64,000 nt of DNA, taken from Fidelibacterota bacterium (GTDB lineage: Bacteria; Fidelibacterota; Marinisomatia; SCGC-AAA003-L08; TS1B11). Every line of letters starts with the position of its first letter. The stretch's first letter is position 1. Both the position numbers and the translations under genes were made by a program. The stretch spans positions 282,654-346,653 of the forward strand of contig SCKJ01000003.1 of assembly GCA_004124875.1 (NCBI GenBank). The letters run 5' to 3'. Below are positions 8,133 to 26,346 of the stretch, one piece after another. The notes beneath the pieces were generated by a model that was not told the origin of the DNA, did not search any database, and worked only from the letters and a program-made list of their open reading frames with translations.

Positions 8133-9098
8133 TCAAGGTTTAATATAGCGGAAACTTATTTCCAGTCCCGAGGAAGTTATTTGACTTTCATTGGCTGCCA
8201 CCAACAGGGGCGTATGCAATCGCACAACGCCCGATAACCTTTCAAAAAGTTCGACCTCAAATCCTGCGCTTCCATCCAGGAAAAATCCGCCGGAGTTGCG
8301 AGCTTTCTTACCTTCCCAGTAATCGGCCCCTTCCCAGCGGAAGCGCAGCCTCAGGTAGGGAAAGCCGCGCCATACGCGGTAGGATTGTCCAATGGCATGC
8401 AGATCGAACCCTGCTTTATGGCCGGGTTGAAACCCGATATCGCTGGTGAGCCATCGTGGCGAGAACAGGCTCGTCAGTCCCATCACCCAGGGAAATTCGG
8501 ATCTGCGCCACCACTGGCCGGTGAAGGTGACCTGCATCGTACCCGCTCCCAAGGCGAAGTGACGGTGATCCACCGAGTCTGCGTTGGCGTCGAAGGGATT
8601 CAGGGCGTAACTGGGAGCCGTCGGTAGCGATGCGCCTAAGCCGAGGAAAATCCGATCACCGGGCCCGAAGGTCAGGTTCGATACAGTGTACTGCACGCCT
8701 ATCTTAAAATCTTGAAATCCCTCAAGAGTCTCCCTGCGGTGATGGGTGTCTTCTGTCTCTACCGACTGGGACCAGCGTATGATGGGCAGGCTCGCCACGA
8801 GGTTGATTCGCGAGGTAATCCCGACCAGACCAAACAGATTCGTCTGGTGCGTGATGACGCTTCCGAAGTGCTCGGTGTCTCCCTCAACCTCATTCATAAC
8901 CGGCGAAAACCGGTTGTATCCGTAAGAGGCGCCGGCCAACAGGCCGCCTTTGCTCAGTCCGATACCTTCCATGGCGCTTCCGACCGGAAGCGTGGGGTTG
9001 CTTCAGAGCGGTCACTGGCCCCAGAGCGGGCTCCAGCCGAGCAACAGACCGGCCAACAGGATCAGCGAGCGAAGTCGAATGAACACCTGCGCCATCAT
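8133..9098 (-). CDS. Outer-membrane beta-barrel protein with two in-frame UGA codons, predicted selenoprotein (UxxU)
   Basis: Read through two TGA codons (9012-9014 and 9003-9005) the chain is 321 residues. A signal peptide (hydrophobic 12-26, ending SPLWGQ) is followed by U29-P-L-U32-S-N-P-T-L-P, then a barrel with alternating aromatic strands ending in EISFRYIKP, with a terminal-strand pattern though without the usual final Phe. Without recoding, the signal peptide and the barrel would be separate fragments in the same frame with no shift between them. Outer-membrane proteins of this kind in related bacteria often carry a CxxC at the start of the mature chain, the positions taken here by UGA. 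A perfect hairpin with loop GGTC begins 10 bases after the second UGA. The start ATGATG overlaps the stop of the CopZ-like gene, showing translational coupling. Probable role: metal binding or passage at the outer membrane in the mer-like operon (inference). The alternative is a double nonsense pseudogene. Confidence 0.75.
8975..8992 (-). promoter_or_regulatory. SECIS-like hairpin after the UxxU codons
   Basis: On the minus strand, CGCTTCC-GGTC-GGAAGCG forms a perfect 7-bp stem with loop GGUC. The first loop G is 18 nt after the second UGA and 27 nt after the first, both inside the 16-37 nt window used by bacterial SECIS elements, whose loop begins with G or GG followed by U as in fdhF. One hairpin could serve both codons. 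The stem lies within the coding sequence, as bacterial SECIS elements do. Confidence 0.72.
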
Positions 9099-9580
9099 CC
9101 TGCAGGGAGCAAACCCTGTTCCACACAGGCCTTGGCGAACATGATTTCCTTCGCTACCGTGCCCAGGCAACAGCCACCGCTCGGATTGGTCACCTCGCAG
9201 CGACATTCCCCAGCCCTCACGCGTTCCGTGATCACTTTTTGGATGTCCGTGTCGCCTGTGCGGCGAATATCATCTCGCACATCTTTGCGGTCATAGCCGA
9301 AACAGTAGCAGAGCGGGATGGGGTCATCGGTCTCCTTGATCCCCACGCGCACAGTCAGCAGGTCCTTGGTGATCAGGTGATCGCCCAATGCGGACACATA
9401 GACTGTATCGCAATCCGGGGCATCGCAGAAAAAATAGGGTTGAGCGGTCAGCTGCGCCTTGATTTCAGGCTTGACCAGGCATTCGACGGTCTGCCTGCCG
9501 ACAGGCTTCGTCACCTGAAGATTCATCGGACATATGGGAATGTCCCCAACATGGGGTACAATGCAACAAGCTTCAGACAT
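9095..9580 (-). CDS. CopZ N-terminal-like zinc/[2Fe-2S] protein
   Basis: 161 residues, rich in Cys. The order of motifs matches the N-terminal domain of Archaeoglobus CopZ: an early Cys pair (CCIVP, ICP), FFCDAPDCDTVYV, the strand TVRVGIKETDDPIPLCYCFGY, and the close CEVTNPSGGCCLG. That domain binds one zinc and one [2Fe-2S] cluster and is thought to reduce or deliver copper. There is no C-terminal HMA domain here, but a separate HMA protein is encoded just upstream (stop to start gap about 20 bases), so the two may work as a split CopZ. The stop codon overlaps the start of the downstream barrel gene. Cytoplasmic; no signal peptide. Confidence 0.8.
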   Translation of the reverse strand: MSEACCIVPHVGDIPICPMNLQVTKPVGRQTVECLVKPEIKAQLTAQPYFFCDAPDCDTVYVSALGDHLITKDLLTVRVGIKETDDPIPLCYCFGYDRKDVRDDIRRTGDTDIQKVITERVRAGECRCEVTNPSGGCCLGTVAKEIMFAKACVEQGLLPAG

Positions 9581-9600: not shown

Positions 9601-10179
9601 CTAAAGTACCTGGAAGGTTTTGATGTCAACGAGATACGGGTGACGATCAGTGTGTCCCAAGGGGGGCGCTTCGGATGCTTGGCCTGTGATAAAGACCTCC
9701 TGCCCGGACGCTTTCGCCGAGGCCATAAGTCGCTTGAGCTGGCGATTTTCTTTCAGCACATAGATCGTCGTAACCTTTTTTCCCGCTTGGTTTGTTGAGT
9801 TGATTGATAAGGCTTGCACACCGTTCCAATCAATCAGTTTTCCCGCCAGGGCCACATGGACCCCGCGTGGTGTGAAGCCTCCCGCAATGACCGCTTCCTT
9901 TACTTCGTCAATCTCGATATGCCGGCCCTTACTTGGAATAAGCTCCACGATCCCTTCCTCAAGGTTAATGATGGAATGCTGCACGGCGGGGATCTCTTTA
10001 ATTCGCTTTTCCAAACTGTAGGCGCAGAATGGGCAGGTCAATCCATCAACCCGAACGGTCAATTTGGGGTTCACTCCAGCCTTCCCTGCCGTTTGCGCAG
10101 CCACAATAATGGGTGAAAGCAGCACAGCGCCCAAGATGACGGTTGCTGTCAGAACTGCTCCAGGGTTATTGATTTTCAT
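9601..10179 (-). CDS. Exported heavy-metal-associated (HMA) domain protein
   Basis: 192 residues. A signal peptide or anchor (hydrophobic about 9-28, ending IIVAAQ) is followed by an HMA domain with the metal site GLTCPFCAYSLEKRI near residues 46-60, the usual GMTCxxC place. The second half (about 105-192) is a small beta domain with a KVTTIYVLKEN strand that I do not recognise. MerP-like proteins are periplasmic HMA carriers that hand mercury to MerT. The position in an operon headed by a mercury-type MerR supports such a role, but copper is equally possible given the CopZ-like gene that follows. Confidence 0.8.
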   Translation of the reverse strand: MKINNPGAVLTATVILGAVLLSPIIVAAQTAGKAGVNPKLTVRVDGLTCPFCAYSLEKRIKEIPAVQHSIINLEEGIVELIPSKGRHIEIDEVKEAVIAGGFTPRGVHVALAGKLIDWNGVQALSINSTNQAGKKVTTIYVLKENRQLKRLMASAKASGQEVFITGQASEAPPLGHTDRHPYLVDIKTFQVL

Positions 10180-10444: not shown

Positions 10445-10756
10445 TTAAAAACGCGCCCACAGCCATACCCGTGGTGTCCAGAAGCCAACGACGATGACCG
10501 TAGCACCCCAGGTCATCCAGTGCGTCCACCGTAGGCCTTCGTGCCTTACATAGATCAACCAGAACGCCCGCCCGAGAAAAGCGGCACTGAGGGGCAAAAA
10601 GAACCACGTTAGTTTCGTAAGCCAAACCTGTGAAAACATAACGCCCGTCAGGGAGAGGAACGACAGGGAAGCGGGCACGATACAACACCAGGGAACAGAT
10701 CCCATGATAGCGGTCGTGATAGCGCCAATACTATGTTTTGTGGTCAAATTCTCCAT
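10445..10756 (-). CDS. Small membrane protein, MerT-like
   Basis: 103 residues with three predicted membrane helices. The first helix is entered by SVPWCCIVPASLSFLSL, a vicinal Cys pair with a nearby Pro as in MerT, where such a pair in helix 1 receives Hg(II) from MerP. The second Cys pair of classical MerT is absent. It lies in the mer-like operon between the two export/outer-membrane genes. The ion could also be another soft metal. The call rests on the Cys pair, size and context rather than on strong family motifs. Confidence 0.6.
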   Translation of the reverse strand: MENLTTKHSIGAITTAIMGSVPWCCIVPASLSFLSLTGVMFSQVWLTKLTWFFLPLSAAFLGRAFWLIYVRHEGLRWTHWMTWGATVIVVGFWTPRVWLWARF

Positions 10757-10854: not shown

Positions 10855-11787
10855 CTAAAAGATCAGCCATCGCAGACCAAAAGTGTACGAATAGTCGAGT
10901 CCAAGTTGCTCACCATTGAAATATTGGTAGAGGGGCAGTTGTAAGGAGGCTTCCAACAGAAACGTTCGTGAGAAGACAAATTGGACGCCTGGAGAAAGTA
11001 CGAGGATCTTCTTCCCTGTATTTGGCTGCTCCAATCCCTCCTTGCGATCTTTCCCACTAAACTCCGATAGCAACTCCACAAATATGGATGAATAAGGAGA
11101 TGGATAGGTCTTGTACACCTTGGGAAAAATTCTATAGCCCATGGCGAGGTTCGCGGACCAGACATCACCGAACTGGTAGCCTTCTGCTTGGGAATTCTTG
11201 CGGTAACTTCCTTCTACGTTGAGACCGATGCGATTTCGAACATAAGTGACAATAGGCCCGCCCAACACATCGAAAGAGCCAGAGCCAAGCTGTAAGGGAC
11301 GCGGCAATGGCCCCATCTCATCACTGGCGTCAGCCTTTCCCGTGGGTAGTTTGATGCCCCCCAGAAACGTTATGCGGAGCGTCGCTCGTCTTGTGTCCCT
11401 TTGATAGAACTGATATTTACCCAAGAGCTTCAAATCTCCCCATCCAGAAGCATCTCTGGATACGCGATTTCCGTTCTTGGTCAGTTCCATTCCTTTAGAC
11501 AGGTAGGGCACGGCCGCAATGACCACCAGCTTATTTGGAATAACCTCAAAAGGTATCATCACGGGGAAAGCAAAGGCGCTCGCCGCACGCTCACTGCTGT
11601 TGGAGACCACGCGGGCACCGGAGAACAGGGTCGTTTTCTGCATGGCTTTACCGAATGTGCGAATGGCTGACCCGTTCAATCCCGTCACGAAAGCGGTATT
11701 GGTGTTAATGGGCGGTCCTTGGGCAACCGCAACCACTATCGAGAACAGAACGGTTGTCGTGAGCTTGGGGATAAATCCTCTTTGCAT
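10855..11787 (-). CDS. Outer-membrane transporter-like beta-barrel
   Basis: 310 residues. A signal peptide (ending VVAVAQG) precedes a barrel of alternating strands with the motifs RITFLGGIKLPTGK, GSGSFDVLGGPIVTY and SYTFGLRWLIF at the C-terminus, where the final Phe fits the insertion signal of outer-membrane barrels. These motifs are typical of the transporter/phenol-degradation-like barrels often found beside mer and cop genes. It follows the MerP-like gene by about 65 bases, in the same operon. The function is probably passage or release of metals or small molecules across the outer membrane; this is inferred from context. Confidence 0.75.
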   Translation of the reverse strand: MQRGFIPKLTTTVLFSIVVAVAQGPPINTNTAFVTGLNGSAIRTFGKAMQKTTLFSGARVVSNSSERAASAFAFPVMIPFEVIPNKLVVIAAVPYLSKGMELTKNGNRVSRDASGWGDLKLLGKYQFYQRDTRRATLRITFLGGIKLPTGKADASDEMGPLPRPLQLGSGSFDVLGGPIVTYVRNRIGLNVEGSYRKNSQAEGYQFGDVWSANLAMGYRIFPKVYKTYPSPYSSIFVELLSEFSGKDRKEGLEQPNTGKKILVLSPGVQFVFSRTFLLEASLQLPLYQYFNGEQLGLDYSYTFGLRWLIF

Positions 11788-11853: not shown

Positions 11854-12096
11854 TCATAATCCAACAGATATTGAATTAGATTGACCTATGAGAGAAATTT
11901 TATAATTCTTAACTTTCATGATTGTTTTAATCAATTCCTCTTGATTTTCTCCGGCTTCATCCTGTATGGTCACCATTTCATTTTCCAAATCAACGTCTAC
12001 ATCTTTAACCGATGCTATTTTATAGAGGGCTTTTTGCACCCCTACCACGCAACTATTGCAGCACATTCCGACGACTTTTAGTCTCGTTTTTGCCAT
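11854..12096 (-). CDS. MerP/CopZ-like HMA-domain protein
   Basis: 80 residues from the ATG at 12096, chosen because CAGGAGGATTCAAAC precedes it; an upstream in-frame ATG lacks a ribosome site. The chain is one HMA domain: VVGMCCNSCVVGVQKAL is the metal loop, with an extra Cys between the usual two (C-C-N-S-C), and VDLENEMVTIQDE matches strands 2-3. There is no signal peptide, so it is a cytoplasmic carrier, unlike classical MerP. It sits directly after the MerT-like gene and presumably passes the metal on to the operon's reductase or efflux partner. Confidence 0.82.
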   Translation of the reverse strand: MAKTRLKVVGMCCNSCVVGVQKALYKIASVKDVDVDLENEMVTIQDEAGENQEELIKTIMKVKNYKISLIGQSNSISVGL

Positions 12097-12131
12097 GTTT
12101 GAATCCTCCTGATAATTTTTCATGTTATTTA

Positions 12132-12567: not shown

Positions 12568-12978
12568 TTACCATGTCCTGTCGCCACCCAGCGCCTGCAG
12601 GATAGGACAATCGCCTACGGGACCCCGGCCGCTACACGAGGCCGCCAACTGGTTTAGGGCTTTCTTGATCCTCTTAAGAGATCGCAACTTTTCCTCAATA
12701 TCCATGATCTTAAGATCCGTACGATTCTTAACGACAGCGCAGGGTGTCTCCGGGTCCACTCGCAAGTTGAGGAGCTCCTGAATCTCCTTAAGGGTGAAGC
12801 CCAGCTCTTGCGCTCGCTTGACAAACTGGATGCGCGCGACCGCATCGTCCGGATATTGACGGTAACCGGACTCACGCCGGGGCGGTTCAGGGATAATCCC
12901 CCGTCGTTCATAGTAACGAATCGTTTCAACATTTACGTTCGCTCTCTTGGCTAATTGGCCTGTGGTCAAGCTTGTCAT
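12568..12978 (-). CDS. merR: Mercury-type MerR transcriptional regulator (copy 1)
   Basis: 136 residues from the ATG at 12978, which follows GGAGGTTAAAT. The N-terminal winged helix-turn-helix (TGQLAKRANVNVETIRYYER) and the wing (RESGYRQY) are canonical. The three metal-binding cysteines lie in C-x34-C-x8-C spacing (TPCAVVK ... AASCSGRGPVGDC), exactly the Cys82/Cys117/Cys126 spacing of Tn501 MerR, so a mercury-type trigonal site is expected. It is the first gene of the operon it should control; its own promoter carries the typical 19-bp spacer. Confidence 0.92.
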   Translation of the reverse strand: MTSLTTGQLAKRANVNVETIRYYERRGIIPEPPRRESGYRQYPDDAVARIQFVKRAQELGFTLKEIQELLNLRVDPETPCAVVKNRTDLKIMDIEEKLRSLKRIKKALNQLAASCSGRGPVGDCPILQALGGDRTW

Positions 12979-12996
12979 ATTTAACCTCCAGACGGA

Positions 12997-13027
12997 GTTT
13001 ACGCCCTGTACCATAGTACGAAGTCAA
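12997..13027 (-). promoter_or_regulatory. MerR-type promoter/operator of the first mer-like operon
   Basis: On the minus strand, -35 TTGACT (13022-13027) and -10 GTAAAC (12997-13002) are separated by 19 bp, the overlong spacer that MerR proteins untwist. The spacer holds the dyad GTAC-CATA-GTAC (13008-13019). The merR start codon lies 18 bases beyond the -10. Agreement with the Tn501 mer promoter (TTGACT, 19-bp spacer, GTAC dyad) is close; the -10 is weak. Confidence 0.82.
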
Positions 13028-14658: not shown

Positions 14659-16032
14659 TCATCGGGCGGCTTTGGCAGCACCCTTTACTACCTCGCTTAA
14701 AGTGGGGTGCACGTGAATGGTCTTGGTCAGCCTGTCCAGTTTGCCATAATCGTGCATTGCAATGGCGACCTCGTTGATTAAAATATCTGCATGGGGGCCA
14801 AGAATGTGTCCGCCCAATATTTCATTGGTTTTGGCATCCACCACAATTTTAACCACGCCCTCGGTCTCGCCAATGGCCAGGGGACGTCCATAGCCGGCGA
14901 ACTGCTCCACGCCCACCTTGACCTCATGTCCTGCCTTAATGGCCTGTCGCTCCGTGAGGCCTACTGAGGCCAATGCCGGCTCAGTAAACACCGCTCGCGG
15001 CACGACGCGATAGTCCACCGCTTTGCCACTCCCCTTGATGGCATTCAAGGCTGCGATGGGCGCGTCATAAATGGCCCTGTGGGTAAATAGGGCGCCACCG
15101 TTGGCATCTCCAAGCGACCAAATGTTGTCAGCGGAGGTCTGTAGTTGCGCATTGGAAGTGAGAAATTGGCCCGTCATATCAATTCCAGCTGCGGCCAATC
15201 CCAATCCGTCAACCCGTGCCGTACGGCCGACGGCAAGAAGGATGACTTCCGCCTCAAATCGCTGTGGCTTGCCGTCCACGTCGGCCAGGACGAAGCGCTG
15301 ACCATTCTCTCTGCCGGCGCTCACGACCGTGGCAGAAGTGTGTAAGTCGATGCCTTCGTTTACCAACAGATTGCCTAAATATTCCGACAACTCAGGCTCT
15401 TCAGATCGCATGACCCGGGGCGCCCTGCCCAGCAACGTGACCTTCGTGCCAAAGCGAGAGTACATCTGCGCGAACTCGACACCGACGAAACCGCCACCAA
15501 TGATAATCATCGACTTGGGAACAGACGTTAGATGCAAGGCCTCATTGTTGGTGATATATCCGGCCTCATCGAGGCCCGGGATCGGGGGCTTCACTACAAC
15601 AGATCCAATGGCCAGGATGCTTTTATCCGCCTGCAGCGCTTTTCCGTCGACTTGAATATCGACAGGAGAGGTGAATTCAGCCCTGCCTGTTATGAAGTCG
15701 ACATTTTTGTAGCTCTTGATATTTTTATGAATGCCCGCTATGATACCATCCACGATGGCGTTTTTCCGCTTTACCGCAACGCCAAGATCGAAGTTAATAG
15801 GCTGGGTTTGGTCGATATTTACACCGAACTCGGCGGCCCTATTCTGCACCAGATTCATCACCTCTGAAGACCTTAACAAGGTCTTTGTGGGCTCGCAGCC
15901 CTCGTTGACTCACGTGCCGCCAACTTCGTGCATTTCAATGAGGGCCACATTTGCGCCCAAACGAGCCGCCATGAATGCAGCCGGGAGGCCGCCCTGGCCG
16001 GCGCCAATGACCGCTAGATCATAATTCTTCAT
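14659..16032 (-). CDS. MerA/dihydrolipoyl-dehydrogenase family flavoprotein with active-site UGA, predicted selenoprotein
   Basis: 457 residues when the TGA at 15910-15912 is read as codon 41. The N-terminal FAD motif GAGQGG is at 10-15. The redox site reads GGT-U41-VNEGC46-EPTKTL, where the family has GGTCVNxGC; U replaces the first (interchange) cysteine that reacts with substrate, and Cys46, next to FAD, is kept. The NAD(P) motif GGGFVGVEFAQMYSRFG and the dimer-interface HPTLSEVVKGAA follow. The C-terminal vicinal Cys pair of classical MerA is absent, and so is the NmerA HMA domain. The frame is continuous across the TGA and a perfect hairpin follows at the proper distance. Start: the ATG at 16032 begins the Rossmann strand MKNYDLAVIGAG and overlaps a 35-codon ORF. 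Likely role: NAD(P)H-dependent reduction of Hg(II) or another thiophilic substrate, using a selenol for higher affinity (inference). Confidence 0.85.
15867..15885 (-). promoter_or_regulatory. SECIS-like hairpin in the reductase gene
   Basis: On the minus strand, AAGACCTT-GTT-AAGGTCTT is a perfect 8-bp stem with loop GUU. The loop G is 33 nt after the UGA at 15910-15912, inside the 16-37 nt range reported for bacterial SECIS elements. The loop starts with G followed by U as required, although it lacks the GG of some elements. It encodes residues just after the Sec site, so it is subject to both protein and RNA constraint. Confidence 0.68.
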
Positions 16033-16126
16033 GAGCGGAAATGCGCTGCTCAGTTTCCCTGAGATGGATGAATTCATCGGGGAACGCTGCCAGATACTCT
16101 TTAACCCGTTTTTCATCTATTGCCAT
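16019..16126 (-). CDS. 35-residue ORF overlapping the selenocysteine reductase start
   Basis: Begins ATG at 16126 after GGGAGCAGAGC and reads MAIDEKRVKEYLAAFPDEF then ends RISAHEEL with TGA at 16019-16021, overlapping the reductase start by 14 bases in another frame. The composition is protein-like and acidic, probably one or two helices. It may be a real small protein or a translational coupler that loads ribosomes for the reductase, which has no ribosome site of its own. No family recognised. Confidence 0.5.
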   Translation of the reverse strand: MAIDEKRVKEYLAAFPDEFIHLRETEQRISAHEEL

Positions 16127-16176: not shown

Positions 16177-16590
16177 CTACGCCTCACCTACGGTCTCCAG
16201 TGCCTCCAAAATGGGGCATTCGCTTGTCGGGCCCAACCCGCGGCACGCCGCAGACAGATTGATCAAGGCCTGTTCAATTTTCTGCAAGGATCGGACTTTC
16301 TCCCTGACAGATGAAATTTTTGTGTCAGTGCGCAATTTTACATCGGCACAGGTGGTGTGGGGGTCGACCCGCAGCGTTAGCAGATCAGATATCTCGGCCA
16401 GCGAAAAGCCCAGCTCCTTGCCGTGACGAATGAAGACCAGGCGACCCACCGCATTATCGTTATATTGACGATACCCCGAAGCCCGGCGCTCCGGCTCCGG
16501 CAAAAGTCCCTTACGCTCGTAAAAGCGGATGGTCTCGATACTGACTTGCGTCCGCTTCGCCAACCGGCCTATTGAAAAGGTTCCGCTCAT
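16177..16590 (-). CDS. merR: Mercury-type MerR transcriptional regulator (copy 2)
   Basis: 137 residues; the start follows CAGGAGGATCATGAT. Helix-turn-helix IGRLAKRTQVSIETIRFYER and wing RASGYRQY are canonical. The cysteines are again in C-x34-C-x8-C spacing (TTCADVK ... SAACRGLGPTSEC), matching the Tn501 MerR mercury site. About half its residues match copy 1, so the two are paralogues rather than a recent duplication. It leads the operon carrying the predicted Sec reductase, DUF302 and a membrane protein. Confidence 0.92.
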   Translation of the reverse strand: MSGTFSIGRLAKRTQVSIETIRFYERKGLLPEPERRASGYRQYNDNAVGRLVFIRHGKELGFSLAEISDLLTLRVDPHTTCADVKLRTDTKISSVREKVRSLQKIEQALINLSAACRGLGPTSECPILEALETVGEA

Positions 16591-19642: not shown

Positions 19643-20224
19643 TTAACGCCTGCTGTAGCGGCCCATTATCTGCGCCTGCCCGAGCACATGGCCTTCCATG
19701 GCCTGCTCCACATCTTTTTTGGCCGCCGTCGAGTCGAGGGTCAATGCGCTATCAAGGGCATAAAGCTTGAAGTAGTACCGATGGGTCCCTGCAGGGGGGC
19801 ACGGTCCGCCGTAGCCCGTTTTCCCCCAGCTGTTGGTCCCCTCCACGCTGCCTTGGCCGCTGACCTCCTGACGCTTGGCGTCCTCCGGCAGTCCCGCTAC
19901 CGCCGCGGGAATATTGAACATCACCCAATGGTCCCAGGTCCCCCCCGGGGCGTCAGGATCGTCGCAGATCAGGATCAGGGTCCGGGTACCCGCCGGCAGG
20001 CCGGACCAGGCAAGCTCCGGTGAGATGTCGTCGCCATCGCAGGTAAAACGGGCGGGGATGTTCCCGCCCTCGGTGAAAGCGTTGGAGGTTATCTGCATGG
20101 TTGTGTCTCCCGGCGCAGGGAGAGACGCCGACAATGCCGGCGCCCATCCCGCTGCCAATATGAACATTGAGAGGGGTCTCATCGGTCTAACATAGGGGCG
20201 ATTCGCCTGCGCTGCAAGCATCAT
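19643..20224 (-). CDS. YbhB/YbcL family (PEBP-like) exported protein
   Basis: 193 residues. A long N-terminal region ends in a signal-type segment (FILAAGWAPALSAS). The PEBP-like core follows: FTCDGDDISPELAWSG, LILICDDPDAPGGTWDHWV, NSWGKTGYGGPCPPAGTHRYYFKLYALD. These are the anion-binding pocket motifs (DPDAP, GxxGP). The bacterial family is of uncertain function. The start ATG overlaps the cusA stop (ATGATG), so it is the last gene of the efflux operon. Confidence 0.85.
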   Translation of the reverse strand: MMLAAQANRPYVRPMRPLSMFILAAGWAPALSASLPAPGDTTMQITSNAFTEGGNIPARFTCDGDDISPELAWSGLPAGTRTLILICDDPDAPGGTWDHWVMFNIPAAVAGLPEDAKRQEVSGQGSVEGTNSWGKTGYGGPCPPAGTHRYYFKLYALDSALTLDSTAAKKDVEQAMEGHVLGQAQIMGRYSRR

Positions 20225-23200
20225 TCCCTTACATCCGCGGGCTCAACAGCCGATCCCCCTGCCCCCGGTCCCACTATCGAATATGACCGCCAGATGTAGT
20301 AGATGGTGGGGATGACCAGCAGCGTCAGCACCGTCGATGTCACCATGCCACCGACCATGGGAGCAGCGATGCGTTTCATCACTTGGGAGCCTGTCCCAGT
20401 GCCCCACAGAATCGGCAACAGGCCGGCCATAATGGCCGTTACGGTCATCATTTTGGGTCTTACCCGGTCCACGGCGCCGGCCATGATGGCATCGTATAAG
20501 TCTTTCGGCGAGGTCATCTGGCCCGCTGCCACACGCTCTTTGTAGGCATGGTCCAGATAGATCAGCATGATGATGCCGGTCTCGGCCGCGACGCCTGCCA
20601 GGGCGATAAATCCGACCCCCATGGCGATGCTCATGTTGTACCCCAGCAGGTAGGTAAACCATAGCCCGCCGACCAGCGCGAAAGGCAGTGACAACATGAC
20701 GATAATGCTTTCAGTGATATTCTTGAAATTCATATAGAGCAGCAGGAATATGATCAGCAGCGTGATTGGGACCACGATCTTCAGGCGTTTGTTGGCCCGC
20801 TCCATATATTCAAACTGTCCACTCCAGACAATGGAGTACCCTTCCGGCACTCGCAGCTCCTCGGCCAAAGCTGCCTGTGCCCGCTTGACATAAGTGCCCA
20901 CATCAATGCCGGTGATGTCCACGTAGATCCAGGCCGTTCTGCTGGCGTTTTCGCTTTTGATAACGGTAGCGCCCTTCCTTATGACGATTTTGGCGACTTG
21001 GCTCATGGGAACGTGCGCGCCGGTTGGCGTGGGGATAATGACCCGCCCGAGTTGGGTGATATTATCGCGCAGTTCGCGTCCATAGCGGACGTTGATGGGG
21101 TACCGCTCCTGGCCCTCCACCGTGTAGCTGACGTTCATGCCCCCGATGGCAGATTGAATGACATCCTGAATGTCTCCCACAGTGAGTCCGTAGCGGGCGG
21201 CCTCGTCCCTGTTGATCTCAAAGTCGAGGAAATTTCCGCCGGTCACTTTGTCGGCAAATGCGCTCAATGTTCCCGGCAGCTTCTGCACGATGGCCTGGAC
21301 CTCCGCGCCCATCGCATTCAGGGTATCCAGATTTGACCCCATGAGCTTGATGCCAACCGGTGTTTTGATGCCTGTGCTCAGCATGTCGATGCGGGTTTTA
21401 ATCGGCATCGTCCAGGCGTTGGTCAGACCGGGAAACTGAATGGAACTGTTCAATTCGCTAATCAGCTCATCCATTTTAACGGACCGATTTTCCGGCCAGA
21501 TTGCCACAAAAATGGAACGCATGAACTGTGGTGCCGGCAGGTCCGAATGCCATCGGTCGATGCGCTTCCGCTTCGGCCAATCTTCAACCGGCTTCAGAGT
21601 GATGGTGGTTTCGATCATGCTCAACGGCGCCGGATCGGTGGCCGTCTCAGCGCGCCCAATTTTTCCGAATACGCGTTCGACTTCCGGAAAGGTCTTGATG
21701 ATTTTGTCGGTCTGCTGAAGGATTTCGCGAGCCTTGGTGATAGAAAGCCCGGGATCGGTCGTCGGCATGTAGAGCAGATCGCCCTCGTTCAGTGGAGGCA
21801 TAAATTCCGATCCGAGGTTTTTAAGCGGTATAACGGTTAAGCCGAGCACGGCGCCGGTGATGACCAGAGTGGCTTTCCGGTAGCGCAATACCCAGCGTAT
21901 GAGCGGTCGGTAAACGCGGATCAGGAACCGGTTGACAGGGTTTCTGGCCTCAGGCAGAATTTTCCCCTTGATCAGATAACCCATTAAAACCGGCACGATG
22001 GTAATGGCCAGAATGGCCGAGGCCCCCATGGCATAGGTCTTGGTAAAGGCCAGCGGTTTAAACATGCGGCCTTCCTGTGCCTCCAAGGTGAAGACAGGCA
22101 GAAATGAGAATGTGATGATGAGCAGGGAGTAAAACAACGCCGGGCCGACCTCTTTCGAGGCTTCGGCGATGAGTTGCCAGTGATCCACCTTGTCGCCGCG
22201 ACGCTCAATATGCTTATGGACATTTTCGATCATGACAATGGCAGCGTCGATCATTGCGCCAATGGCAATGGCAATACCGCCCAGCGACATGATGTTGGCG
22301 TTCAGGCCCTGGTAGCGCATGATCAGGAATGCGATCAGTATACCTACGGGAAGGGTGAAGATGGCCACCAGGGCGCTTCTGAAGTGGAGCAGAAATATGA
22401 TGCAGACCAGCGCTACGACAGCACTTTCCTCGAGGAGTTTCTCCTTCAAATTATCGACGGCCCGTTCGATGAGCAGCGAGCGGTCGTAGACCGGATTGAT
22501 GCTGACTCCCTCAGGCAGACCGGCCCTTAAATCATCCAGCTTTTGCTTTACCTTACGAATGACTTCGAGGGCATTTTCGCCGTAGCGCATTATGACGATG
22601 CCACCGACGACTTCGCCTTCGCCATCGCGCTCCACCAGACCCCTGCGGAGTTCCGGGCCCAAATGGATATGGGCGACGTTGCGCAACAGGATCGGCGTCC
22701 CATTTCCATCCACACCCAGAGGCACTTTCTTCAGATCGTCAATAGATTTGATATACCCAAGGCCCCTGACCATAAACTCCGTTTCGGCCATCTCGATGAG
22801 GCGGCCGCCCACATCATTGTTGCTGCGCTTGATGGCTAGCGTGACTTTGTTCAGCGGTATGTTGTAGGCCAGCAGCTTGACGGGGTCAACTTCCACCTGG
22901 TACTGCTTGACAAATCCGCCAATGCTGGCGACTTCGGCGACACCTTTGACGCTCATCAACGGAAAGCGGAGATACCAGTCCTGGATGGAGCGCAGCTGTT
23001 GCAAATCGTGCCGGTCGCTTTCAACGGTATACTCATAGACCCAGCCGACACCGGTGGCGTCCGGTCCCAGCTGCGGCGTCACCCCCTGCGGCAACCGGCT
23101 GGCGACGAAGTTGAGATATTCCAGGACCCTGCTGCGGGCCCAATACATATCGGTGCCATCTTCAAAAATGATATAGACGAATGAAAGGCCAAAGAAGGAG

Positions 23201-23454
23201 TATCCCCGCACAGTCCTGGCAAACGGCACCGACAGCATGGCGGTGGTGAGGGGATAGGTTACCTGATCCTCTACGACTTGAGGGGCCTGCCCCGGATATT
23301 CCGTGAGAATGATGACCTGCACATCACTCAGGTCAGGGATAGCATCCAGCGGGGTTGTCAGCAGCGCGAAGAATCCGCCGAGTATGACAATCACCGTGGC
23401 CAGGATCACTATAAACCTGTTGTTGATGGACCAATCGATAATTTTCTCTATCAT
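20221..23454 (-). CDS. cusA: CusA/CzcA family heavy-metal efflux RND transporter
   Basis: 1077 residues, the usual length. The TM1 start (MIEKIIDWSINNRFIV), the periplasmic porter motif YPGQAPQVVEDQVTYPL and the TM4 proton-relay segment GAMIDAAIVMIENVHKHIE are canonical for the heavy-metal branch. The conserved segments AETATDPAPLSMIETTITL and WTMPIKTRIDMLSTGIKTP occur, with Met residues that line the metal path in CusA. In the CusA segment LYMPSTLPGMS this protein has LYMPTTDPGLS, so one Met of the path may be missing and the metal could be silver, copper or another ion. It works as a trimer in the inner membrane, with the adaptor and TolC genes beside it. Confidence 0.92.
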   Translation of the reverse strand: MIEKIIDWSINNRFIVILATVIVILGGFFALLTTPLDAIPDLSDVQVIILTEYPGQAPQVVEDQVTYPLTTAMLSVPFARTVRGYSFFGLSFVYIIFEDGTDMYWARSRVLEYLNFVASRLPQGVTPQLGPDATGVGWVYEYTVESDRHDLQQLRSIQDWYLRFPLMSVKGVAEVASIGGFVKQYQVEVDPVKLLAYNIPLNKVTLAIKRSNNDVGGRLIEMAETEFMVRGLGYIKSIDDLKKVPLGVDGNGTPILLRNVAHIHLGPELRRGLVERDGEGEVVGGIVIMRYGENALEVIRKVKQKLDDLRAGLPEGVSINPVYDRSLLIERAVDNLKEKLLEESAVVALVCIIFLLHFRSALVAIFTLPVGILIAFLIMRYQGLNANIMSLGGIAIAIGAMIDAAIVMIENVHKHIERRGDKVDHWQLIAEASKEVGPALFYSLLIITFSFLPVFTLEAQEGRMFKPLAFTKTYAMGASAILAITIVPVLMGYLIKGKILPEARNPVNRFLIRVYRPLIRWVLRYRKATLVITGAVLGLTVIPLKNLGSEFMPPLNEGDLLYMPTTDPGLSITKAREILQQTDKIIKTFPEVERVFGKIGRAETATDPAPLSMIETTITLKPVEDWPKRKRIDRWHSDLPAPQFMRSIFVAIWPENRSVKMDELISELNSSIQFPGLTNAWTMPIKTRIDMLSTGIKTPVGIKLMGSNLDTLNAMGAEVQAIVQKLPGTLSAFADKVTGGNFLDFEINRDEAARYGLTVGDIQDVIQSAIGGMNVSYTVEGQERYPINVRYGRELRDNITQLGRVIIPTPTGAHVPMSQVAKIVIRKGATVIKSENASRTAWIYVDITGIDVGTYVKRAQAALAEELRVPEGYSIVWSGQFEYMERANKRLKIVVPITLLIIFLLLYMNFKNITESIIVMLSLPFALVGGLWFTYLLGYNMSIAMGVGFIALAGVAAETGIIMLIYLDHAYKERVAAGQMTSPKDLYDAIMAGAVDRVRPKMMTVTAIMAGLLPILWGTGTGSQVMKRIAAPMVGGMVTSTVLTLLVIPTIYYIWRSYSIVGPGAGGSAVEPADVRE

Positions 23455-24989
23455 GGCCCAGCTCCGTCATGGTTCATCCCTGGCTCCATCGCACCGTTGG
23501 GCACGGGATGCTCCATTTCATCGCCATCCGGATGGACATGATCTTCATTCGCGTCCATCTGCAGCTGCAGTTTGGTGCTCTGTGCAGCGGCTCGGCCGGC
23601 CAGCATTTTTGCTATGGTTTCCTGGAGTCTGCTCTCCGAATCGATGAGGAACTGCCCTGAGGCTACGACCTGTTCGCCCTCGCTGAGGCCCTCCAGTATC
23701 TGGTAATACCCATCACTGCTTTCGATGCCGATAGTCACGTCCCGGGGAGCGAAGCGGCCCTCTCCCAGGGAGACGATGACCAGATTGCGTTCGCCGGAGA
23801 ACAGCACCGCTTCACTGGGCACCGCAATGGCGTCGTATACCGGGGCAGTCTGCAGCCGCACAATGGCGTACATGCCGGGCTTCAGATTTAATCCGGGATT
23901 GTCAAATACCAGCCTGACTTTAATCGTCCGGGTCTTTTCCTCAAGATAGGGGTAGATGTACTGCACCTTGCCGGTATACGTTCTACCCGGCTCATACGAT
24001 AACGTCACGATCGCTGTCTGGCCGGTTTTCACCCAGGGCACTTCATACTCATAGATGTCGGCGTAGACCCAAATCGTGGACAGATCAACGATGGTATACA
24101 GGCTCATCCCCGATTTGACTTCCATGCCGTCAAGCGCATGCTTTTTGGTGACGACACCCTTGAAGGGAGAATGGATGGTCAGCGTTTTTTTGACCATGCC
24201 CGAAGTCGCAAGCTGCCTGATCTGCTTCTCCGAGACATCAAAATAGCTTAAGCGCCGGCGCGCGGAGGCGAGGATGCTCTCCAAATTCGCCTTGGTATTG
24301 CCGGATGCTGCAGCTCCGAGTCTGCCCAGCGCCTGGTAGGCATCGAGATACTCCTCCTGCGCCGTGACCAGTTGAGGGGAGTAGATTTCCAGCAGAGACT
24401 CGCCTTTGGCCACCTCCTGACCCGTTGTATTGACGAAGGTTTTCTCAATCCAGCCTGAAAATTTGGTATGGACATGGCCGACGCGGGACTCGTCAAAGGC
24501 GATGCGGCCGACAGTCCTGATCTCCTGGGTCAAATCCCTACGGACGACAGGCGCGAACCGGATGCCCATATTCTGCTGCACCACGGGATTTATTCTCACG
24601 GTGGCGCCGAACGCTTCCTCGCCTTCATAAACCGGCACCAGGTCCATCCCCATCGGTGATTTTCCCGGCTGCGGGGATATATAGGTGGGATCCATGGGGG
24701 CCCGGTAATAGAGTATTCTCTTTTCACCGCCCACCTGTGCTGCAACGGCAGCCACAACCGGCTGGTTCAAGGGGACCAGGTCCATCCCGCAGATGGGGCA
24801 ATTCCCAGGTCCCTCATGGATAACATTCGGATGCATACCGCAGGTGTAAAGCATAACCACCTCTTCGGTGTCCATATCGTTATTCTTGGCGGCGCCGGAG
24901 TTTCCGCCACAGCCCGAAGCCAGCAGGATCATCAGCATTAAGCCGATGCCGATAAGGGGTCTGCTTGTCATTATGTGCTTAGTTTTCAT
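23451..24989 (-). CDS. cusB: CusB-type RND periplasmic adaptor with two heavy-metal-binding modules
   Basis: 512 residues. It is a lipoprotein: the lipobox LASGC puts Cys27 as the acylated residue. Residues about 48-74 form a heavy-metal-binding domain (YTCGMHP ... CPICGMDLVPL). A second, partly altered copy follows (RAPMDPTYIS ... SPMGMDLVP), which has lost the cysteines. Then come the adaptor lipoyl/hairpin and beta-barrel segments (IHSPFKGVVTKKHALDGMEVK). The Met-rich sites capture Cu(I)/Ag(I). Its stop overlaps the cusA start by 4 bases, and it overlaps the TolC gene end by 11 bases. Confidence 0.92.
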   Translation of the reverse strand: MKTKHIMTSRPLIGIGLMLMILLASGCGGNSGAAKNNDMDTEEVVMLYTCGMHPNVIHEGPGNCPICGMDLVPLNQPVVAAVAAQVGGEKRILYYRAPMDPTYISPQPGKSPMGMDLVPVYEGEEAFGATVRINPVVQQNMGIRFAPVVRRDLTQEIRTVGRIAFDESRVGHVHTKFSGWIEKTFVNTTGQEVAKGESLLEIYSPQLVTAQEEYLDAYQALGRLGAAASGNTKANLESILASARRRLSYFDVSEKQIRQLATSGMVKKTLTIHSPFKGVVTKKHALDGMEVKSGMSLYTIVDLSTIWVYADIYEYEVPWVKTGQTAIVTLSYEPGRTYTGKVQYIYPYLEEKTRTIKVRLVFDNPGLNLKPGMYAIVRLQTAPVYDAIAVPSEAVLFSGERNLVIVSLGEGRFAPRDVTIGIESSDGYYQILEGLSEGEQVVASGQFLIDSESRLQETIAKMLAGRAAAQSTKLQLQMDANEDHVHPDGDEMEHPVPNGAMEPGMNHDGAGP

Positions 24990-26346
24990 TTTTCAAGTCC
25001 TCTTCATACTGGGTCGCACCCGTGGCTTTCAACAATTTTGCGCTGACGATGCGTCGCCGTGCTTCGACAGATTCAAATTCCAATCGTACTCTGACGACCA
25101 TCCGCTGGGAATCGAGCACATCTAAAAAACTGATCTTCCCTGTCTCATAGGCGGAAAAGGCCGAAGCGAGCATCTGCTCAGACTCCCCTATGAGCTGGCC
25201 GCCGTAAATCAAATATGTCTCTTCGATTTCATGCAGCGCGTGCAGCGTCGACCGCACTCCGTTCTCAAGCCGGTTCCACGTTTCCTGCGCCAGCTCATCT
25301 TTGGAGGCAACCATCAGTTCAGCCGATTGAACCCTGGCCCTGTTTTTGCCAAACCACAGGGGGATGTTCAGCCCGACCTTAACTCCCATCGCGTCTTTGC
25401 CCAGTGCGGGGGCTGTCCCGGCACCATCCGGGCCGATGAAGGAATAAGTCACTCCCGCCAGCAGGTCGGGGTAGTTTTTGCGCCGGGCCAGCTCATGCTG
25501 CAGGGAGGCGATCTCAAGTTCCAGCAGCGATTTCCGGTATCCGGGATTGAGTTCGCGCGCCTGGGCCAGCCAGAAATCGACTGCCTCAGTGGGCGGCATC
25601 GGTGTCCTTTGTGCGGCGAACAGCTGCGCCTCGAACTTGCCGTCAAAAAGCGCCACCAGATCATTGTTGCGGGATTGCAAATCGCTCTGCAGCGAATTGA
25701 TTTTGCTTTCGATCAGAGATATTTCGATCTGGAGTTTCAGAATAGGATGCTGCGTGATGCCGCCGCCGGTGGAATATTGGGCCAGCGCATTTGACCTGAA
25801 GGAATTCAACTCTTCCCGGTAGCTTTTCAAAATTTGCAGTGAACGCTCCAGCCTGAGATAATCTTCCCATGCAGTGCGCATTTGCCAAACCACCTCAACC
25901 TGAGAATGGCGCAGATTGAGCGCGGCGATAGCGGCTTGCTCCTCCGCGATTTGGCGTTGGCGGCGCAATTTGCCCCAGAGCGGAATTTTCTGCCCCAGCA
26001 TGATCTGTAGCTCCGTGGGGCCGTTGCGCGTCTCGATGGGCTGCACAAAACCGACCCCTTCAATCATGGGGTCGGGGAGCTTTCCCTTCGCGCGGATAGA
26101 TGCCGTCGCAGCCTGATAGGCCTTCTCGGCCGCCTGCACCTGCTTATTGTTTGCCAGCAGCAGTTGAATCGGCGTGGAGAGGGGCGAGAGACTTTCGCCG
26201 GCGGAGCGATTGGCCCTGGTGGATCGACCCGGCTGCGCGGACAGCGAGCCAGCCAGGAAAACGAGCCAGGCCAGCAATGTTGATCCGTCCGGCAGCTGCC
26301 GGACCAGCGCTACCGGATGTCGCCCGCAAAAGTTGAAATATTTCAT
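24979..26346 (-). CDS. TolC-family outer-membrane efflux protein
   Basis: 455 residues with a signal peptide (LLAWLVFLAGSLSAQ). The two repeated outer-membrane-efflux halves are visible (helical coiled segments such as ALNLRHSQVEVVWQMRTAWEDY and ASLQHELARRKNYPDLLAGV). This is the exit channel for the CusBA pump. The gene is followed directly by the overlapping cusB, and preceded by a small secreted Cys-rich protein. Confidence 0.9.
   Translation of the reverse strand: MKYFNFCGRHPVALVRQLPDGSTLLAWLVFLAGSLSAQPGRSTRANRSAGESLSPLSTPIQLLLANNKQVQAAEKAYQAATASIRAKGKLPDPMIEGVGFVQPIETRNGPTELQIMLGQKIPLWGKLRRQRQIAEEQAAIAALNLRHSQVEVVWQMRTAWEDYLRLERSLQILKSYREELNSFRSNALAQYSTGGGITQHPILKLQIEISLIESKINSLQSDLQSRNNDLVALFDGKFEAQLFAAQRTPMPPTEAVDFWLAQARELNPGYRKSLLELEIASLQHELARRKNYPDLLAGVTYSFIGPDGAGTAPALGKDAMGVKVGLNIPLWFGKNRARVQSAELMVASKDELAQETWNRLENGVRSTLHALHEIEETYLIYGGQLIGESEQMLASAFSAYETGKISFLDVLDSQRMVVRVRLEFESVEARRRIVSAKLLKATGATQYEEDLKNEN

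Follow-up and report, generated by a model that had tools for sequence, protein, structure and literature searches.

The window (the whole stretch of DNA analyzed, 64,000 nucleotides) carries on its minus strand, at positions 8133 to 9098, a coding sequence for a putative outer-membrane barrel of 321 amino acids plus stop, provided that UGA is read as selenocysteine (Sec) at amino acids 29 and 32. Translation with the standard code gave only three stops, at codon 29, codon 32, and the end of the gene. With UGA read as Sec, the product is MMAQVFIRLRSLILLAGLLLGWSPLWGQ-U-PL-U-SNPTLPVGSAMEG..., i.e., a signal peptide, a U-x-x-U motif, and a barrel. In its immediate context the motif reads GQ-U-P-L-U-S-NPTLPVG and lies between the signal peptide and the predicted 12-strand barrel. 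A preliminary description of this DNA had noted two in-frame TGA codons at this point in the layout U-P-L-U, and they are present as described, on the minus strand. Translation of the plus strand over the same positions did not yield the gene.

The first UGA is located at positions 9012 to 9014 and the second at 9003 to 9005, 9 nt apart, and the terminator of the gene is itself TGA. The signal peptide (amino acids 1 to 27; positions 9018 to 9098, minus strand) was assigned from the sequence and appears as a hydrophobic helix at residues 2 to 25 in the AlphaFold2 model. Cleavage is inferred to take place before Gln28, which is invariant among homologues, and would give a mature protein that starts with Q-U-P-L-U. 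A putative SECIS hairpin with a 7-bp stem follows at 8975 to 8992 (minus strand), with the tetraloop GGUC at 8985 to 8982.

The surrounding genes are on the same strand. Directly upstream of the barrel gene, at 9095 to 9580, is a gene for a [2Fe-2S] metallochaperone resembling the N-terminal domain of CopZ (PF18423; NF047645 above cut-off). Its stop overlaps the ATG of the barrel gene (ATGA), as it does in several homologous loci, which suggests translational coupling. Beyond it are genes for a secreted MerP/CopZ-like HMA protein with a CPFC motif (9601 to 10179; PF00403), a small MerT-like membrane protein with PWCC (10445 to 10756; weak match to NF033560, E 0.0015), a second barrel (Phenol_MetA_deg) without N-terminal Cys or Sec (10855 to 11787; PF13557), a cytosolic HMA metallochaperone with GMCCNSC (11854 to 12123; PF00403), a MerR-family regulator (12568 to 13014; best NCBIfam match TIGR02051 MerR, 143.7 bits, cut-off 150.85), a flavoprotein resembling lipoamide dehydrogenase and MerA (14659 to 16116; TIGR01350 above cut-off), and a second MerR-family metal regulator (16177 to 16590). 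A CusCBA-like RND efflux set is found at 20221 to 26346, also on the minus strand; on inspection, its CusB-like protein starts with a heavy-metal-binding region, CGMHP...CPICGM.

The flavoprotein gene also has an in-frame UGA (15912 to 15910), which would put Sec in place of the first Cys in the redox CxxxxC (GGT-U-VNEGC) and is followed by an 8-bp hairpin with the loop GUU. The same UGA is retained in four to five other genomes belonging to this family, which bears out the earlier suggestion of a second, independent UGA candidate in the island. A conserved-UGA scan across loci was too noisy when conducted blind, because TGA is conserved in the alternative frames of conserved genes as well, and only the flavoprotein UGA was retained from it.

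Conservation of the two UGA codons

When 245 genomes from the phylum ("Candidatus Neomarinimicrobiota") were searched, a homologue of the barrel was detected in 80; about one-third of the species sequenced in this phylum carry the double-Sec barrel. Both TGA codons were at the same two positions in 75 of these 80 genomes, one of which (G106) was counted across a frameshift. In two others one TGA was combined with one TGT (Cys), giving UALC (genome G102, locus L053) and CSLU (G060, L066), and in the remaining three the match was partial and ended short of the UxxU motif. Among nearly uniform TGA codons, TGT replaces the first in L066 and the second in L053 and L155. The family motif, GQ-U-[PA]-[LM]-U-x-N-P-[ST]-[LM]-P-V-G, has few deviations. 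Neither TAA nor TAG was found at either UGA position in any homologue read, and there was no further TGA in the barrel body in the 85 homologous loci read. In one locus (L083 of G105) the barrel body contains an early TAA, to be explained either by a disrupted gene or by an error in sequencing.

In order to search beyond the phylum, a degenerate motif pattern that permits Sec, Cys, or Trp codons was scanned against 84,980 species genomes. The scan yielded 61 stretches, in which all readable motifs were TGA plus TGA except for one that was TGA plus TGT. Most matches were labelled "Ca. Neomarinimicrobiota" or Marinimicrobia; the few exceptions were labelled Methylococcales, Flammeovirgaceae, Bacteroidetes, Rhodobiaceae, or FCB group. 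These off-phylum labels likely reflect misbinned or misnamed metagenome-assembled genomes, an inference based on how close the sequences are to the others. No match was found in the plasmid sequences searched. None of the readable motifs in the 84,980 genomes represented a Cys-plus-Cys (CxxC) copy of the family, and selenoprotein searches based on Cys pairs would therefore tend to miss it.

Retention of both TGAs in 75 of 80 genomes is far beyond chance, in agreement with the earlier argument that chance nonsense mutations were unlikely. The UxxU motif had also been thought to mirror a CxxC in related outer-membrane proteins. Cys does occur at each of the two sites within the family (UALC and CSLU), and a tandem sister subfamily has CALU, CSTU, and CAMC, but no CxxC copy of the exact family was found in the 84,980 species genomes.

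A SECIS hairpin in range of both UGA codons

The hairpin in the window, CGCUUCC-GGUC-GGAAGCG, has 7 bp and a predicted stability of -11.5 kcal/mol. Its loop starts 17 nt after the second UGA and 26 nt after the first; the preliminary description gave the same stem and loop with distances of 18 and 27 nt, a difference in counting. Bacterial SECIS elements are expected to have a loop of 3 to 9 nt of the form N1-G[G/U]...N2, with a G among its first two nucleotides and N1 paired with N2, at a distance of 16 to 37 nt from the UGA, and a minimum free energy (MFE) of at most -7.5 kcal/mol (PMC13188914). The hairpin conforms to this rule in loop, N1:N2 pair, spacing, and MFE, as had been claimed for both UGAs. 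Because 17 and 26 nt are both within the published range, a single hairpin can be reached from both codons, and we infer that it serves both. A search of the window against Rfam at the gathering cut-off returned no RNA family.

Support for the hairpin came from covariation, independent changes, and a synonymous-recoding test in a set of 62 distinct sequences. The loop was GGUC in 46, AGUU in 12, and AGGU in 4. The N1:N2 pair, formed by positions 29 and 32 (the third bases of Pro and Val codons), was GC in 46 and AU in 16 and hence 100% paired, with at least 5 independent double switches. Positions 26:35 (Leu3:Gly3) were paired in 95% of the sequences with six pair types, compared to 44% when shuffled, and positions 23:38 in 89% compared to 49%. 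When the register was shifted by one, pairing fell from 0.87 to 0.44. On the protein tree, the minimum number of state changes was 5 for 29:32, 17 for 26:35, and 20 for 23:38. In all 62 sequences the hairpin was more stable than the mean of its synonymous recodings (mean z, -2.15). The MFE limit of -7.5 kcal/mol was passed by 43 of the 62 in a 27-nt window and by 47 in a 36-nt window; the 19 hairpins that were weaker than this in the 27-nt window count against the assignment.

Sec decoding in the genome and phylum

The assembly from which the window was taken (3.02 Mb; 94% complete) contains selA (496 bits) adjoining selB (316 bits), selD (369 bits; contig C12, 165488 to 166420; L249), and a tRNA-Sec that has the anticodon UCA and scores above the Rfam cut-off. 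The selD gene has an in-frame UGA of its own (GSG-U-ACK), after which there is a hairpin with the loop GUU. The presence of all four components supports Sec decoding in this organism independently of the barrel. Two outcomes that would have been fatal to the proposal, a strain without Sec genes and a gene not translated past its first UGA, were not encountered, the latter as far as sequence can test.

Across the phylum, selA was above cut-off in 70 of the 80 genomes with the barrel versus 105 of the 165 without it (Fisher P = 8e-5). This co-occurrence is supportive only, because the genomes are not independent. The 10 barrel genomes in which selA was not found, a point against the proposal, are all metagenome-assembled genomes that are 58 to 89% complete. 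Two families with no strong selA match among those listed (f13 and f23) are also without the barrel.

A protein-coding gene with two UGAs and a covarying SECIS element in a Sec-decoding lineage points to a selenoprotein family, and on this comparative evidence, without protein-level or expression data, Sec at both UGAs is predicted with near certainty. None of the matches in Pfam, NCBIfam, or PDB sequence names such a family, and no published description of it was found in the literature searched. It would thus be a new selenoprotein family with two Sec residues in an abundant marine phylum, previously unannotated, the genes for which are likely misannotated as truncated or missing.

Fold and relation to known proteins

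An AlphaFold2 run on 42 homologues gave a model with a pLDDT of 89.5 and 12 strands, the first of which starts at residue 53. The model is uncertain at residues 21 to 40 (pLDDT, 56 to 59), the stretch that holds U29 and U32. The best Foldseek matches in the PDB were FapF (E 2e-11) and the COG4313 channel 4rl8 (E 8e-10; TM, 0.61/0.71), and a PDB search by sequence returned nothing meaningful. The window protein has no match to PF13557 above cut-off, and only 4 of the 42 members match it weakly (E down to 7e-5). Thus, the protein is best regarded as a fold relative of COG4313/PF13557 and not as a filed member; PF13557 misses most members of the family. The characterized channels of this group (Pput2725 of Pseudomonas putida, 4rl8; FapF, 5o65/5o67) have the same signal peptide, 12-strand barrel, and extra N-terminal segment before strand 1. 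However, Sec has not been reported for the solved members, and their genomic neighborhoods differ. That the protein is a 12-strand channel of the COG4313/FapF fold, with two Sec residues at its mature N terminus as Q-U-x-x-U, is the core of the explanation that we favor and is considered highly probable.

The 4rl8 structure has the segment that precedes strand 1 folded into the lumen from the periplasmic side (PMC4493636), and the FapF pore is gated by a plug at the N terminus (PMC5557850). By analogy, Q-U-P-L-U probably occupies the lumen or the periplasmic mouth, although confidence is limited because the model is unsure in this region. The earlier placement of the selenoprotein barrel at the cell surface was too strong, since the COG4313 topology directs the N terminus toward the periplasm or the barrel lumen. 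His77, His119, His120, His178, and His180 are near-invariant in homologues. They are inferred to be in loops that a COG4313/FapF-type topology would place outside, and they could be further ligands.

Both UxxU selenoproteins and one Sec-containing outer-membrane barrel of another type are already known from reviews. The latter, the MtrB/PioB barrel (GSU2204 family, NF041027), is likewise predicted to contain Sec (PMC9312934, PMC13188914), but it belongs to a different, CXXCH-containing family of the MtrB type with a single Sec, and its profile matched none of the 42 members. A selenoprotein barrel is therefore rare, as first supposed, but not unprecedented. Two Sec residues in UxxU spacing are also found in NF041115, which is listed as a metal-binding (seleno)protein and was earlier called a putative mercuric reductase, and in the Prx-like and FmdB UxxU proteins. 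These are small soluble HMA, Prx-like, or regulatory proteins and not barrels, and no sequence relation between them and the barrel was found.

Sister barrels with N-terminal Cys or Sec

Several genomes encode related barrels with Cys, Sec, or both at the equivalent site. A second barrel with QCALUNAPPPPVGG adjoins the double-Sec gene in G070 and G071, a relative with QCSTU is present in G030, and in G062 the tandem copy has QCAMCNSPPPPAGG, in which the pair is a full CxxC (CAMC). The motifs of these four sister barrels (L250 to L253) are CALU, CALU, CAMC, and CSTU, respectively, and those of G070, G071, and G062 are directly beside a UxxU gene. A further sister family, VSURRPxLPGGS, has a single conserved UGA and is found in about a dozen genomes (loci L189 to L200). 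Its members adjoin a beta-propeller-like lipoprotein gene and, in some loci, also a gene for a TlpA-like protein. More distant barrels have CSCGGAP or CC directly after the signal peptide; they adjoin a gene for DUF3179, a family listed with Sec members, and one is on contig C7 of the window's genome. The motifs of the sister and distant barrels indicate that, throughout the barrel superfamily, the site immediately following the signal peptide is one for Cys or Sec.

Soft-metal context, proposed function, and alternatives

Within 76 loci, the genes near the barrel included ArsR-type regulators (15), CopZ-N-like proteins (13), MerT-HMA proteins (10), HMA lipoproteins (7), and flavoproteins (7), and at least one such metal-gene neighbor was present in 25 of the 76. 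The remaining loci, mostly from small pelagic genomes with shorter flanks, had none of these metal genes in reach. With so many pelagic genomes lacking metal genes beside the barrel, a role in metal handling may not be general. A gene for a small HMA lipoprotein ending in CCKVPG is found just downstream of the barrel in seven loci that are otherwise poor in metal genes.

When the island in the window was compared to mer operons, MerT/HMA-like proteins were present and MerR was just below its cut-off, while the flavoprotein scored above cut-off as lipoamide dehydrogenase and below it as MerA. Two Sec-containing heavy-metal transport families are known, a MerT/CopZ fusion (NF045683) and the Csac_0668 CopZ-N family (NF045877), and the neighbors of the barrel in the window are Cys relatives of these. 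In those families Sec is in the MerT/CopZ proteins, whereas in the window's island it is in the barrel and the flavoprotein.

A mechanism that would accommodate these features is as follows. SelA, SelB, SelD, and tRNA-Sec would insert Sec at both UGAs under the direction of one downstream SECIS hairpin, and signal-peptide cleavage would leave Q-U-x-x-U inside the barrel lumen or at its periplasmic mouth, where the N terminus lies in the COG4313 crystal structure. The UxxU motif might act both as a soft-metal ligand and as a redox pair, in the form of two selenolates or, if oxidized, a diselenide, and could capture or gate the passage of a thiophilic metal such as Hg(II), Cu(I), or similar. Partners of the barrel may be other products of the island, namely, the CopZ-N-like metallochaperone, the Sec flavoprotein, and the HMA/MerT-like proteins. 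Soft-metal binding at the lumen as the main role is an inference that we advance only tentatively. More speculative still is a general form of the model, in which channels throughout the phylum are gated by a lumen-facing N-terminal Sec pair, through metal binding or redox chemistry, one SECIS element controls insertion of both Sec residues, and the double-Sec barrel is the extreme form of a superfamily with CxC, CC, xSU, CxxU, and UxxU. Placement of Sec in an outer-membrane channel makes metal capture or channel gating testable.

The pair might instead function primarily as a redox switch, with a diselenide/diselenol transition opening and closing the N-terminal plug of a small-molecule channel without direct metal binding. 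The two-residue spacing is typical of redox pairs, Sec-containing sister barrels adjoin TlpA-like thioredoxins, and the plug of FapF-type barrels does gate the pore (PMC5557850). However, annotated neighbors in the double-Sec loci are most often metal chaperones and metal regulators rather than thioredoxins, and the near-invariant His residues also suggest metal ligands. A primarily redox role is considered somewhat less likely than soft-metal binding.

It is also conceivable, but improbable, that efficient decoding is confined to the second UGA, 17 nt from the loop, and that the first receives Sec poorly or by another route, so that the mature protein is mixed. Equal efficiency at 17 and 26 nt from one hairpin can be inferred to be unlikely even though both distances are permitted, yet the first UGA is conserved as strictly as the second, and UALC retains the first UGA with Cys at the second position. 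With two UGAs 9 nt apart and one hairpin reaching both, the gene offers a natural system for studying how one SECIS element serves two UGAs.

That the UGAs are genuine stops or nonsense mutations, in a decaying gene or one rescued by downstream reinitiation, is how an annotation pipeline unaware of Sec would call them, and there is an ATG at codon 43 in the window. This reading was rejected as extremely improbable: relatives have no start codon at codon 43 (e.g., ATEGIGL), the same two UGAs are kept phylum-wide and never as TAA or TAG ahead of an open barrel frame, the Q-U-x-x-U-x-NP motif is conserved with Sec/Cys exchange, and the wobble positions covary in the hairpin. Reassignment or misreading of UGA as Trp, Gly, or Cys, which occurs in some lineages, can be dismissed here because the barrel gene ends with UGA and none of 85 barrel bodies contains one, tRNA-Sec and selA, selB, and selD are present, and the SECIS element covaries.
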